Assembly (NCBI GenBank): GCA_030524715.1
Contig: JAUNGB010000053.1
Span: 1-36,836, forward strand
Length of the DNA stretch: 36,836 nucleotides
Source of the DNA: Eubacteriales bacterium
Lineage (GTDB): Bacteria > Bacillota > Clostridia > Lachnospirales > Lachnospiraceae
Direction of reading: 5' to 3'
Below are positions 204 to 34,903 of the stretch, piece by piece (the stretch's first letter is position 1; every line of letters begins with the position of its first letter). Under the pieces are notes generated by a model, which worked only from the letters and a program-made list of their open reading frames with translations, made no database searches and was not told the origin of the DNA. The translations under genes were made by a program, and so were the position numbers.

Positions 204-382
204 TTCAAGACTCGCTCGCGAGTCTTGGTGCGGGATTCGGGTCAGCTATGCTGACATAATTCCAAACCGAATCCCTGCACATCCTCGCGGAGCGTATATC
301 AGATGGGGGATTGACTCCCGCCACTGATACGAGTTTGTTACTCCGCGCCTATAGAGGCGGAAGTCATCTCACATCTGATATA
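204..382. repeat. Structured dispersed repeat, copy 1
   Basis: This ~179-bp non-coding segment recurs at 28162-28382 with only two changes in the first ~110 bp. It folds into three blocks. The first is a hairpin AAGACTCGC-TC-GCGAGTCTT (207-226). The second is a 13-bp arm, GTGC + GGGATTCGG pairing with CCGAATCCC + GCAC with a one-base bulge, enclosing GTCAGC-TAT-GCTGAC. The third is a long arm closed by GTATATCAGATG (near 293) pairing perfectly with CATCTGATATAC (near 372). It abuts the TetR promoter on one side and a terminator (411-442) on the other. No open reading frame is supported. It could be a structured RNA or a REP-like repeat. Confidence 0.8.
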
Positions 383-24918: not shown

Positions 24919-24950
24919 TTTTTTATCCTTTCCGGGAACTGTTTCCCTAT

Positions 24951-24995
24951 AAAGCGGACATTCACATTCCGCTTTGCTGCATGCTCATGAACGCA
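24951..24995. repeat. Hairpin repeat, copy A (yedF leader)
   Basis: An 8-bp stem, AAAGCGGA / TCCGCTTT, encloses a 9-nt loop and is followed by GCTGCATGCTCATG. The same unit occurs at 27965-28009 in the same orientation, with a third copy at 34821-34856 inverted. On the transcribed minus strand the loop is AUGUGAAUG. Confidence 0.7.
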
Positions 24996-25881: not shown

Positions 25882-27029
25882 CTTGTTTCGATCGTCTCCA
25901 TAAATGCTTCCAGACGGGTATTGATCTGTCCGCTGTCTGCCTTAGAATAATCCGTCTCAATCTTCAGATACGGAACTTCCTTATCCTCGGCTGTCTTTTT
26001 CACATAATAGGACTCGATGGCATACGTATGACAGGCCTGAAGGATCAGCTCGAGAACGCCGTCGATCTGATACTCGTCGATCATCTCGCTTATGTAGTCC
26101 AGACGGCCCTGATTGGGGCTCATAATAGAGCAGTTGATATTCAGATATTTTTTCGCCAGGGCCTTTGCAGGCGGGAGGCTTGTATCTACCTTTTCCAGCT
26201 TTTCTCTTGTACCGTTGCAGCAGTCAAAAGCAACCACATCCGCGCCCAGTTCTTCAATTGCTTTGATCGTCTTGTCTCTCATGCCGCTGTTCGGACATCC
26301 GGTGACAAGGATCCGCGGACGGCTTGAGGTTTTTCCTTCCAGATTTTCCTTCCAGTTCTTCAGTACCTCTTCCGTACGTTCTTCAATCAGTTTACAGCGT
26401 TCCTCAATATTCGGATTAAAGCCCAGCGCGTCCAGGCGGGTTCCAAGCTCATATCCGGAAAGAGGCGCCGGATTCAGCTTGCCAAGCTCCAGAAAACGAA
26501 GCATCACGTCTCTTTCCCTGTTTTTCAATTGGATTGCCTTTTTCACCTGTTCTTCTGTGATCGTAATGCCATAAAAATCCTCCAGCTTCTTCCAGAAACG
26601 GATAATTTCCTTTTCCCAGGCTTCAAGGGCTGTCTCATCACGATAGGACGGGAGCTGCATTACATAGGTTTCTTTGATGTCATTCATCAGCTCAAACATC
26701 TTTTTCTTGCCGTCGCAGGTTGTTTCACCTACGATAAAATCAGAAAAATAGAAATACGGACAGGTATCTGTCAATCCGAACCCATAGCTTGCCTTGATCA
26801 GCGGACAGAGATTTCTCGGCAAATCAGCTTCTGCAGCCGGAATCGGCTCTTCGCTGGTGGCGCAAAGGGGCACAGAAACACCGCCTGCAGCTTCGATCAG
26901 CTCTGTGGGAACAAAGGAACAATAAATTCCTACCATATGTCTGCCGGTTTCTTTCAGAGCCTTCATGCGGAGAAAGCCTGCCTTTCTTGCCTCTGCATAG
27001 GTTTCAAAATTTTCCGGTAGCTTCATCAT
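25878..27029 (-). CDS. Double-cubane-cluster reductase / 2-hydroxyacyl-CoA dehydratase D-like protein (YjiM type)
   Basis: A 383-residue protein of the HgdB/FldB/YjiM family. Cysteines suited to cluster binding are Cys37 (GIYCSFVP), Cys75 (NLCPLIK), Cys90 (DTCPYFYFSD) and Cys105 (TTCDGKKK), plus later ones in VTGCPNSG, FDCCNGT and QACHTYAIES. A single subunit next to a single activase, without a second dehydratase subunit or CoA transferase, fits the double-cubane-cluster protein better than a true dehydratase. It probably reduces a small substrate; the physiological one is unknown. The start is ATG 27029 or 27026, both overlapping the lysR stop, with GGAGG upstream. Confidence 0.85.
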   Translation of the reverse strand: MMKLPENFETYAEARKAGFLRMKALKETGRHMVGIYCSFVPTELIEAAGGVSVPLCATSEEPIPAAEADLPRNLCPLIKASYGFGLTDTCPYFYFSDFIVGETTCDGKKKMFELMNDIKETYVMQLPSYRDETALEAWEKEIIRFWKKLEDFYGITITEEQVKKAIQLKNRERDVMLRFLELGKLNPAPLSGYELGTRLDALGFNPNIEERCKLIEERTEEVLKNWKENLEGKTSSRPRILVTGCPNSGMRDKTIKAIEELGADVVAFDCCNGTREKLEKVDTSLPPAKALAKKYLNINCSIMSPNQGRLDYISEMIDEYQIDGVLELILQACHTYAIESYYVKKTAEDKEVPYLKIETDYSKADSGQINTRLEAFMETIETR

Positions 27030-27937
27030 ACGTTTTTTCCTCCTTGGTCATAAAAATTCAAAAGATAATCAATAAACTCTTTTACACAGGGCTTCAGGAT
27101 ATAATCCTTCTGATAGATAATGTAAAATTTCCGTCCCGCCGTTTCACAGGGAAGCTCGAATTTCAGCAGACGTCTGGCGGATAAATAATCCTTCACAGCC
27201 TTCTCTGACACGATAGAAACTCCAAGTCCTCCGGCGACCAGGTTTTTAATAGCTTCCTGATCGTTCATCCTGGCGGCCACATGCAGTTCATTCTCGGAAA
27301 TCCCCATTTTTTCAAAGAAGCGGTTCGCGCTTTTCCTGCTGCCGCTGCCTTCCTCCCGAAGGATCATCGGTTCCTGCAGCAGTTCCTGAATGGAAAGCCC
27401 CTCCCTGCTTTTCATTTCCAGATAGCGCTCGTTCACAGGCGCGATCAGCACCATCCTGTCCTGATAAAAGCACTTAAACTCCAAAAGCTCATCCTCTGTC
27501 CGCATCCCCACCAGACCGACGTCATAGGTTCCTTTGTGAACGGCCTCGATAATCCCCTGGCTGTCGCTCTGGGTAACTGCAAAATAAACATTGTCATACA
27601 GCTTTCCGAATTCCGGCAGAATCTCCGGCAGAATATACGCGGAAGGGATCGTGGAAACACCCAGTTGGATTACCCGGGATTCCTTTCCGTTCCAACGGTT
27701 CACCATATCGTCACGAAGCTTCAGGATATTTCTGGCGCACTCGTACATTTCCCAGCCTCTGGGAGTGATCTCAAAACTCTTTGACGTCCTGAGCACCAGC
27801 CGGGAATTAAATTCTTCTTCCAGACTACGGATATGGGTGCTGATAGTCGGCTGGGAGATTCCAAGCTTTTCTGCGGCAACAGTAAAGCTCTTATACTTTA
27901 CTACCGCGATATAAGACTGCAGTTGTTTAAAATCCAT
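27026..27937 (-). CDS. LysR-family regulator, selenium-metabolism-associated type
   Basis: A 303-residue LysR-type regulator. The winged helix-turn-helix (1-62, FTVAAEKLGISQPTISTHIRSLEEE) is followed by a two-lobe effector domain from about residue 90. Its position as first gene of a YedF/desulfurase/double-cubane operon matches the LysR subgroup linked to selenium metabolism. AGGAGGG lies directly upstream. The stop overlaps the reductase start. A palindrome on its own -35 box suggests autoregulation. Confidence 0.87.
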   Translation of the reverse strand: MDFKQLQSYIAVVKYKSFTVAAEKLGISQPTISTHIRSLEEEFNSRLVLRTSKSFEITPRGWEMYECARNILKLRDDMVNRWNGKESRVIQLGVSTIPSAYILPEILPEFGKLYDNVYFAVTQSDSQGIIEAVHKGTYDVGLVGMRTEDELLEFKCFYQDRMVLIAPVNERYLEMKSREGLSIQELLQEPMILREEGSGSRKSANRFFEKMGISENELHVAARMNDQEAIKNLVAGGLGVSIVSEKAVKDYLSARRLLKFELPCETAGRKFYIIYQKDYILKPCVKEFIDYLLNFYDQGGKNV

Positions 27938-27964
27938 AGCCCCCTCCTATCGTTTATTTTTAGT

Positions 27965-28009
27965 AAAGCGGACATTTTCATTCCGCTTTGCTGCATGCTC
28001 ATGTACGCA
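27965..28009. repeat. Hairpin repeat, copy B (lysR operon leader)
   Basis: This is the same unit as 24951-24995: identical 8-bp stem and GCTGCATGCTCATG tail, with loop AUGAAAAUG on the transcribed minus strand. It falls between the predicted start site and the lysR ribosome site, so it would form in the mRNA leader. Confidence 0.7.
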
Positions 28010-28104: not shown

Positions 28105-28142
28105 ATAACAAAAAAATTATGCCGGGATTACTCCCGGCATTT
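28105..28142 (-). terminator. Rho-independent terminator downstream of bioY-DUF1284
   Basis: The stem ATGCCGGGA / TCCCGGCAT is followed on the minus strand by AATTTTTTT. A second, weaker hairpin (about 28077-28108, GTTACTGTTTACACC pairing with GGTGTGAACAATAAC) lies beyond it. Confidence 0.65.
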
Positions 28143-28161
28143 TCACACTTTCCCGCCACTG

Positions 28162-28382
28162 TTCAAGACTCGCTCGCGAGTCTTGGTGCGGGATTCGGGT
28201 CAGCTACGCTGACATAATTCCAAACCGAATCCCTGCACATCCTCGCGGAGCGTATATCAGATGGGGGATTGAATCCCGCCACTGATATATATTTGTTACT
28301 CACCGCCTATAGAGGCGGGAGTCATCCCCATCTGATACAAATTTGTTACTCACCGCCTGTAGAGGCATCCCACATCTGATAT
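28162..28382. repeat. Structured dispersed repeat, copy 2
   Basis: It matches copy 1 (204-382) almost base for base over the first ~110 bp. The only two changes are a loop base (TAT to TAC inside the GTCAGC/GCTGAC hairpin) and one base near the start of the third arm. The third arm is longer here because a ~48-bp unit containing TTTGTTACTCACCGCCT is present twice in tandem. The closing stem survives, with its last two pairs changed to G-U and U-G wobbles. It lies in the untranslated region between DUF1284 and the terminator at 28105-28142. I see no gene in it. Confidence 0.8.
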
Positions 28383-28450
28383 GTAATTACTCTTTCCGTT
28401 CTGAGAAAAACATACTCTAATCGGCAAACACATTCTAATCCATCGCTGCA

Positions 28451-28855
28451 CTAATCTTCCCAGCGGCTCTTTTTCCGGCTGCAGATATCCTCCCACTGGC
28501 AGCCCCCGCAAATTTCCCCGCGGCGTCCCGGAGAAAGAATTTTCTCCTGCACCATATGGGCGAAATCCCGGAAATTCATTTCCTCATTCTCTGAGAGCCC
28601 GCACCGTTCCAGAACTTCCCTGTCAAATTTTTCAACCCGTCCGGCATCCCTGCAGACACCGTTTCTGTTATTCGGGCAGGCGGAACAGATTTCGTCGGCA
28701 GCGACCGTGAGCTTCACCCTGACATTCGTCTCGAAAAAATCCAGCATTTCCTGCATATGTCCGGTAAAGCCCTTGCTGTATCCGCTTCCCTGAAAATATG
28801 CCAGGCACATTCCATGATGGGGCCGGACAGGAACGGGGATATCATCAGGCAACAT
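28451..28855 (-). CDS. DUF1284 protein, cysteine-rich
   Basis: A 134-residue protein matching DUF1284: an N-terminal VRPHHGMCLAYFQGSGYS motif and two cysteine clusters, Cys57-x2-Cys60-x7-Cys68 and Cys116-x2-Cys119-x5-Cys125. These could bind zinc or an iron-sulfur cluster. Its function is unknown. The start overlaps the bioY stop by 11 bp, so expression is tied to BirA control. Linkage with a biotin importer is the only functional hint. Confidence 0.8.
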   Translation of the reverse strand: MLPDDIPVPVRPHHGMCLAYFQGSGYSKGFTGHMQEMLDFFETNVRVKLTVAADEICSACPNNRNGVCRDAGRVEKFDREVLERCGLSENEEMNFRDFAHMVQEKILSPGRRGEICGGCQWEDICSRKKSRWED

Positions 28856-30100: not shown

Positions 30101-30441
30101 GATTTGCCGCTCCTTTTCTTATGTATTTTAATATTATCCGTGTTACTGCACCTAGAGTGTGTTTGAAAATTCATTCCCGCAATCTGCATCCCCCACTTTG
30201 CGGTATATTTGCCCCGCATTCGGTCGCCGGTCTCCGTTCCACTACGGTCGGCGCTTATCACTCGTCCACCGGACGAGCAGCGCCCCGCTACGCCTCCCTC
30301 ATTTGTGACAAATCTCCCACAAATTGTGGAATACATCTTGCAGAAAGCAATTTTCAAACACACTCTACGGTACAAACAGTAACAAATCGGCTCATTTAAA
30401 GTTCGACTTCGGCAAAGTGCCGAAGTTACTGCAGTTGTAGG
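30101..30441. other. Intergenic region between mscL and mscS
   Basis: This holds the inverted-repeat element at 30142-30383 and, to its right, a short hairpin (GTTCGACTTCGGC / GTGCCGAAGT area near 30400-30427) just past the mscS stop. The open frames crossing it on both strands follow the palindromic structure and lack ribosome sites. Confidence 0.6.
30153..30367. repeat. 215-bp element with 19-bp perfect terminal inverted repeats (MITE- or REP-like)
   Basis: TAGAGTGTGTTTGAAAATT at 30153-30171 is matched by its exact reverse complement at 30349-30367. Outside it GTTACTG (30142-30148) pairs with CAGTAAC (30377-30383). Internal hairpins include TCGTCC-ACC-GGACGA. No transposase and no clear target-site duplication are seen. 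The terminal sequence recurs with one change near 20836-20855. Confidence 0.7.
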
Positions 30442-34734: not shown

Positions 34735-34820
34735 TTACAGCCTCCGTCTTCAAAAATCCTCCGTTGCATCTTCTGTATCGGCACCCGTATCTTCTTACAG
34801 ACTGCACTTTGAACACAAAT

Positions 34821-34856
34821 AAGTATACAGCAAAGCGGAATGCGAGTGTCCGCTTT
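34821..34856. repeat. Hairpin repeat, copy C (inverted relative to A and B)
   Basis: The stem CAAAGCGGA / TCCGCTTT has the plus-strand loop ATGCGAGTG and a degenerate tail AAGTATACAG. It lies between the anti-sigma gene and the phospholipid synthase gene, both on the minus strand, so here it would be transcribed in the opposite sense from copies A and B. Confidence 0.6.
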
Positions 34857-34903
34857 CCTCTATAGCCATAGACTCTGGTGAAAAACAGTCCTGTAGAAGA
34901 ACA

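Follow-up and report, generated by a model that had tools for sequence, protein, structure and literature searches.

Introduction

PATEs (palindrome-associated transposable elements) of the archaeon Haloquadratum walsbyi are described as generating no target duplications, as having palindromes near their termini and a terminal oligonucleotide that is the target, and as being accompanied by "terminal-only" copies from which the core has been deleted (PMC3119063). In the IS200/IS605 family, according to the accounts consulted, insertion takes place 3' of a short target with which an element-borne sequence can pair, and the orientation of the elements follows the lagging-strand template (PMC5934647, PMC5371812) and, more generally, replication (PMC5371812); the guides of IS608 are placed 5' of the hairpin foot (PMC5934647). 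The REPs and REPINs of the TnpA-REP (RAYT) proteins are reported as intergenic hairpins of high copy number, whose movement is believed to involve single-stranded DNA (PMC6006769, PMC8266576).

Here, we analysed a window of 36,836 nucleotides (the term denotes the whole stretch of DNA under study) from a Lachnospiraceae genome of 5.28 Mb in 210 contigs. The window holds two copies of a repeat that is almost certainly mobile, as a short DNA element without genes. Its kind is known, PATE-like, but we found no description of this variant in Rfam or in the literature searched on related repeats and transposons. The best explanation, and in our view a probable one, is a non-autonomous, PATE-type single-strand DNA transposon, about 174 nt long and ending in a palindrome on either side, which a Y1 transposase would move in trans.

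Results

Self-comparison of the window aligns positions 204-368 with 28162-28326 over 165 nt, ungapped and at 95% identity. The sequence-only reading had reported here a nearly identical repeat made of three stacked structures (a 9-bp hairpin, an arm enclosing a second hairpin and a long arm closed by a 12-pair stem), with a tandem duplication of about 48 bp in the second copy. The repeat is real and both copies belong to a large dispersed family; the three structures were recovered in the fold of copy 1, and the duplication was confirmed with a period of 50 nt. The bounds first proposed, 204-382 and 28162-28382, needed refinement: empty sites (see below) place the bodies at 204-377 and at 28162-28378. 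Next to each body the flank holds a pentamer, at 378-382 (ATATA on the plus strand, TATAT on the minus) and 28379-28383 (ATATG on the plus strand), which we read as target and not as element. Both copies are oriented on the minus strand, the presumed transposing strand of copy 1 running from 377 to 204 with the left end (LE) at 377 and the right end (RE) at 204.

Read on the plus strand, the element starts with TTCAAG and continues with hairpin A (206-227 in copy 1; 9 bp, at RE), hairpin B (228-280; long, interrupted and enclosing a second hairpin), a small hairpin D (282-291; TCC/GGA, with a loop whose size varies in other genera), an internal TATAT (295-299) and palindrome C (300-377), which contains an inner hairpin, forms the LE region, is closed by 12 pairs in the fold and ends in CATCTG before the flanking ATATA or ATATG. 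The internal TATAT is complementary to the flanking pentamer and appears guide-like from the sequence and the empty sites. In copy 2, self-comparison and fold place the duplication within C (28282-28316 and 28332-28366). With RNA parameters, copy 1 folds at -86.4 kcal/mol (z = -8.3, none of 200 shuffles being as stable), and both of its strands are far above shuffles in stability (z about -8.3 and -8.4); the z-scores of copy 2 are -5.8 on the plus strand and -7.0 on the minus strand. No ORF in the 174-nt element reaches 80 aa, and it thus encodes no Y1 transposase. Some 80 nt from copy 1, an ATG at 122 on the minus strand may be the start of a TetR gene (Pfam TetR_N). Copy 2 is flanked by genes for DUF1284 (28451-28855) and LysR (27026-27937) proteins, both on the minus strand and named from Pfam, with an inverted repeat and T-run nearby at 28120-28143.

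Other repeats are present in the window. A MITE-like inverted repeat occupies 30153-30367 (TAGAGTGTGTTTGAAAATT ... CACACTCTA), and related sequences elsewhere (L019, L056) adjoin copies of the element or lie within them. A third repeat, AAAGCGGACATT with the near-complement CCGCTTT, is found at 24950-24995, 27964-28009 and 34819-34859, and again near element copies elsewhere (L003, L029, L215). Finally, positions 409-442 and 2086-2119 form a 34-nt direct repeat with 97% identity, ending in GGACACCAGAAAAT.

Many further copies of the element were found, both in the host genome and in related ones. A pattern for the terminal hairpin A with up to three mismatches hits 105 sites in the host genome, against a single site for the reversed-pattern control; a longer directional A pattern hits 64 sites and a module B pattern 68, with no control hit in either case. 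BLAST returned at least 70 matches in the same genome among the best 40 of 186 candidates, both strands of palindromic parts being counted. The copies are modular, being full length, internally deleted with both ends kept, or truncated. This recalls the BOX elements of Streptococcus pneumoniae, modular intergenic repeats whose inner module is optional or duplicated. Of 83 rows processed with a simple ORF caller, 79 fall outside ORFs of at least 90 aa, in both orientations to genes; these rows are fetched loci and no full census, and at least two pairs of them are one copy read on both strands.

Twenty of 150 Lachnospiraceae genomes, the host included, match at E <= 0.001, the identity ranging from 90% over the full length in G067, which has six full-length copies, down to 72% in G105. 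The distribution is patchy within the genus of the host, where at least three of 15 other genomes carry the element (G155, G158 and G159). A pattern scan of contigs from one genome per species gave at least 115 stretches. Named hosts include Agathobacter ruminis, Anaerobutyricum hallii, Blautia glucerasea, Hespellia stercorisuis, Eubacterium oxidoreducens and E. ramulus, and the titles among the matches listed are Lachnospiraceae, or else Eubacterium, Clostridium, Clostridia and unplaced MAG names. Outside the family, no match was listed in ten genomes of the same order; BLASTN (E <= 0.001) found none in phages or plasmids, and one exact pattern found none in viral contigs. In a divergent copy (L123 in G142, positions 1501-1631), a long stem capped by a TTCG loop is inserted into hairpin D.

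The 13 full copies of B. glucerasea (G178) are 97-100% identical, showing that the element multiplied recently in this species. Its sister species RUG154 (G179) has four matches, one of them at a shared site (L188/L203). B. glucerasea also harbours eight minimal copies of about 55-60 nt (L344-L348 and L350-L352), in which LE is joined to the last half of hairpin A at seven different junctions with both ends kept, L343 being an intermediate. These copies recall the terminal-only PATEs, and they could either have moved as such or have been deleted after insertion.

The clearest insertion is found in the host genome itself. Contig C7 carries tandem gene copies without a Pfam match (near-identical ORFs of about 325 aa, L322), one of which is interrupted by a full element while another provides a paralogous empty site: ATCA-ATATA becomes ATCA-element-ATATA, with nothing gained or lost. 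For B. glucerasea, we searched 12 joined flank pairs against RUG154; 11 aligned and L339 had no match. Seven of these 11 candidate empty sites are unreadable (other indels, missing flanks), and four are interpretable, two of them clearly at the right junction. At L336 and L332, the empty site of RUG154 has ATAAA at the right junction, but the left flanks show differences of 1-3 nt; C7 alone thus provides clean evidence that nothing is lost. Two further sites are alignment-dependent, L325, where the empty site reads ATATA and the filled one ATACA, and L333, which falls in an A-rich run. Neither C7 nor the four interpretable RUG154 sites show a target duplication. Candidate empty sites from the genus of the host are 66-78% alike, and those from the genus of G067 67-72%, too diverged to be of use.

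In B. glucerasea, the pentamer beside LE is TTTAT in 18 of 24 copies, with five single-base departures and one unrelated sequence, unlike the next 19 element positions, which are 96-100% conserved. The host genome has TATAT in 23 of 33 copies but lacks this contrast, because the adjoining element positions (70-100% conserved) vary as much. We read the pentamer as a pre-existing target that is no part of the element (ATATA here, ATAAA in Blautia). The element carries the complement of the pentamer across the base of palindrome C, as TATAT here and TTTAT in Blautia; the empty sites back these two and no other pentamers, the complements TTTAA (L117) and TTTTG (L124) being seen in sequence only.

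The orientation of the copies is biased with respect to replication. We took the G-rich strand as the leading strand, skew and gene strand agreeing in 40 of 40 and 18 of 18 strongly gene-biased rows; the G-rich strand is the lagging-strand template. The strand that reads pentamer, LE and RE is the G-rich one in 46 of 61 host copies (p = 9e-5), in 17 of 21 B. glucerasea copies (p = 0.007) and in 90 of 112 copies of other genomes (p = 6e-11), a set that leaves out loci under 3 kb and in which at least five loci are copies of B. glucerasea, from a genome also present in the 21-copy set. Gene direction is a partial confounder, since the split among the 82 host and B. glucerasea copies varies with the flanking genes: 36 to 5 when both run with the skew, 25 to 11 when they are mixed and 2 to 3 when both oppose it. 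Single-strand insertion at the pentamer, on the lagging-strand template, is likely.

Covariation was scored on an alignment (A1) of 32 diverse sequences from 37 extracted cores, leaving out L123 and L124 for their divergent length and L183, L266 and L273 as near-duplicates, under a structure named by hand from the single-sequence fold. In this structure, 96.1% of cells pair and 18 of 30 pairs show both-side change across genera, namely 5 of the 9 tested in hairpin A, 12 of 18 in B and 1 of 3 in D. Both-side-changed cells number 71, against 15.4 in shuffles (none of 500 reaches 71), and the paired share falls to 24-42% when partners are slid by 1-3 columns; related sequences can exceed shuffles, a caveat of the tool, and the slid controls carry the same relatedness. 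The hairpins are kept by selection through compensatory change, in excess of both the shuffled and the slid controls. Unaided, RNAalifold recovers B from A1 (25 pairs in all, 15 with both-side change) and pairs half of hairpin A with D, leaving A unformed. For palindrome C (alignment A2), it returns the inner hairpin only (7 pairs, 4 with both-side change), missing the outer arms because they are out of register; covariation of these arms was judged by eye.

Could the selected object be an RNA? A structured non-coding or cis-acting RNA (a riboregulator, terminator or mRNA-end stabiliser), multiplied through its use when transcribed, would fit the very stable fold, the strong covariation, the interior conserved in many genera and the intergenic position of 79 of the 83 rows. 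Where the gene neighbourhood is strongly one-sided, its genes moreover run with the minus strand in 31 of 40 host rows and 15 of 18 B. glucerasea rows, so that transcripts would mostly carry this strand. However, copies are found in either orientation relative to the genes around them, the gene at C7 is interrupted by a full copy, insertion takes place at a pentamer, and Rfam gives no match at gathering score and chance-level matches only up to E = 10. In addition, the alignment contains 17 G-U and 14 A-C cells, nearly the same number (17 G-T cells on the plus strand and 14 on the other), and this comparison, of modest power, gives no sign that one RNA strand is protected; the compensatory changes fit an RNA hairpin no better than one of single-stranded DNA. 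We thus regard a multiplied RNA as improbable. A cis-regulatory reading from the orientation to the next gene was also rejected, the orientations being mixed.

The loci examined contain no transposase gene beside the element ends. PF01797 (IS200-type) genes are present in the host genome and in 10 of 11 further genomes; G067 has no PF01797 match despite its six full-length copies. The Y1 genes of the host lie outside the element, and one Y1 gene in the host and one in B. glucerasea lie about 1 kb from a copy, with no shared ends seen. An IS605 of the same genome was rejected as the autonomous parent, as BLASTN finds no likeness of the element to IS605 ends. Two host loci (L136 on C116 and L139 on C6) are IS605-type elements whose left-end hairpin, GAAGTCTC..CCTCTTAGG, resembles the inner LE hairpin of the element; the likeness, to GAAGACTCCCACCTCTTTCAGG in the Blautia version, is by eye only. 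We likewise rejected a protein family recurring next to copies in other genomes: among the 25 largest clusters shown, the genes are ordinary ones.

Another candidate is encoded in A. ruminis (L377) and G010 (L385). The Y1 proteins of these two genomes measure 252-267 aa and combine a Y-x3-NP motif with long C-terminal extensions, in one of which weak HTH matches are found. In our reading these proteins may belong to TnpA-REP subclass 2.1; for subclasses 2.1 and 2.3, no REP partner is reported (PMC6006769). A domesticated class-2, HTH-bearing Y1 TnpA-REP might then move the element, which would be the REP-like partner of a partnerless group. Yet an HTH-bearing Y1 profile built from two element-bearing genomes shows no phyletic association, matching 10 of 34 genomes with the element and 5 of 27 without it (p = 0.38; "without" meaning no match among the candidates scored), neither the host nor B. 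glucerasea has such a match, and a motif scan finds no element beside the L377 and L385 genes. Like REPs, the element forms intergenic hairpins in high copy number; unlike them, it has no conserved GT[AG]G foot (by eye, in alignments of 32 and 23 sequences), measures about 174 nt against the 21-65 nt given for REPs in the sources consulted, and has no associated TnpA-REP gene that we could find. Such a partnership is hard to credit.

Discussion

The conditions under which the sequence-only reading would have been refuted do not hold, as many further copies exist and compensatory change exceeds that of the controls. That reading had offered a structured RNA, a REP-like element or a mobile palindrome. 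The last is borne out by the empty sites, the recent multiplication and the strand bias; the second holds by analogy only, given the missing GT[AG]G foot, and the first finds no support in the mixed gene orientations, the balance of G-U and A-C cells and Rfam.

The element shows most of the PATE features tested and lacks the defining features of IS200/IS605 proper and of REPs. Like PATEs, it (i) is gene-less and makes no target duplication (cleanly at C7, with 4 of 11 RUG154 pairs interpretable), (ii) has palindromes close to both ends, from the fold and covariation, (iii) abuts a conserved terminal oligonucleotide that is the target, with a variability contrast in B. glucerasea that is absent in the host genome, and (iv) has core-deleted copies that keep both ends. 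It differs from PATEs in an interior of several covarying hairpins kept across many genera, in ends without a BLASTN match to the IS605 of its own genome, and in its hosts, Lachnospiraceae instead of archaea. PATEs have no terminal inverted repeats; in the Blautia element, a near-terminal 7-nt inverted repeat (AGTCGAG/CTCGACT) can be made out by eye. With IS200/IS605 elements such as IS608 and ISDra2, it shares insertion 3' of a fixed short target without duplication, an internal sequence able to pair with that target, and an orientation that follows the lagging-strand template, confounded here with gene direction. However, it contains neither tnpA nor tnpB, its target is a pentamer where theirs is a tetramer, and, unlike in IS608, its complement is found beyond the LE hairpin, on the 3' side in the presumed transposing strand, where it extends the stem.

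We thus propose that the transposing strand would be the one reading TTTAT (or TATAT) and then LE to RE, that excision and insertion of the element may both involve single-stranded DNA and occur at replication forks, and that the target may be chosen through pairing with the internal complement of the pentamer. The enzyme would be a Y1 (HUH, IS200/IS605-type) transposase supplied in trans, which we infer from the likeness to PATEs and IS200/IS605. Counting against this proposal, a single-strand transposon model does not require B and D to be so strongly conserved.

Two other modes of movement deserve mention. A classical MITE moved by a DDE transposase would also be small, gene-less and present in many copies, and the host genome does contain another MITE-like repeat (30153-30367 in the window), but the interpretable empty sites show no target duplication and any inverted repetition between the two ends stops, by eye, at about 7 nt, making this origin very unlikely. 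Equally implausible is SINE-like retrotransposition of a transcript with the constant A-hairpin end as its 3' end, which would suit the many copies that keep the A end and lose parts of the other (in sets selected for A or B), since the A side itself is absent from some copies (L023, L025), the minimal ones retain both ends, no G-U excess is seen and the strand bias fits replication forks.

More tentatively, instead of a PATE-type variant, the element could represent a separate kind of single-strand transposon of the Lachnospiraceae, one that reads its target by extending its own terminal hairpin; we see this as a possibility, though one less favoured than not. The genomic pentamer and the element-borne complement would together close the base of the LE hairpin, and lineages would have been retargeted naturally by a change of pentamer, with TTTAT and TATAT and perhaps TTTAA and TTTTG, the latter two known from element sequences, as examples. 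The transposase might then be new as well, because G067 has six full-length copies and no detectable Y1 gene.

The covariation is so good that the element can mislead searches for structured RNAs. If the pairing model is true, the element amounts to a series of single-strand transposons that have been retargeted in nature, so that targets and complements from different genera can be set side by side; it also raises the question of which enzyme moves it. Blautia, Anaerobutyricum, Agathobacter and other hosts of the element are common gut commensals. About 100 mostly intergenic copies with very strong hairpins are likely to affect genome assembly, promoters, mRNA ends and recombination.
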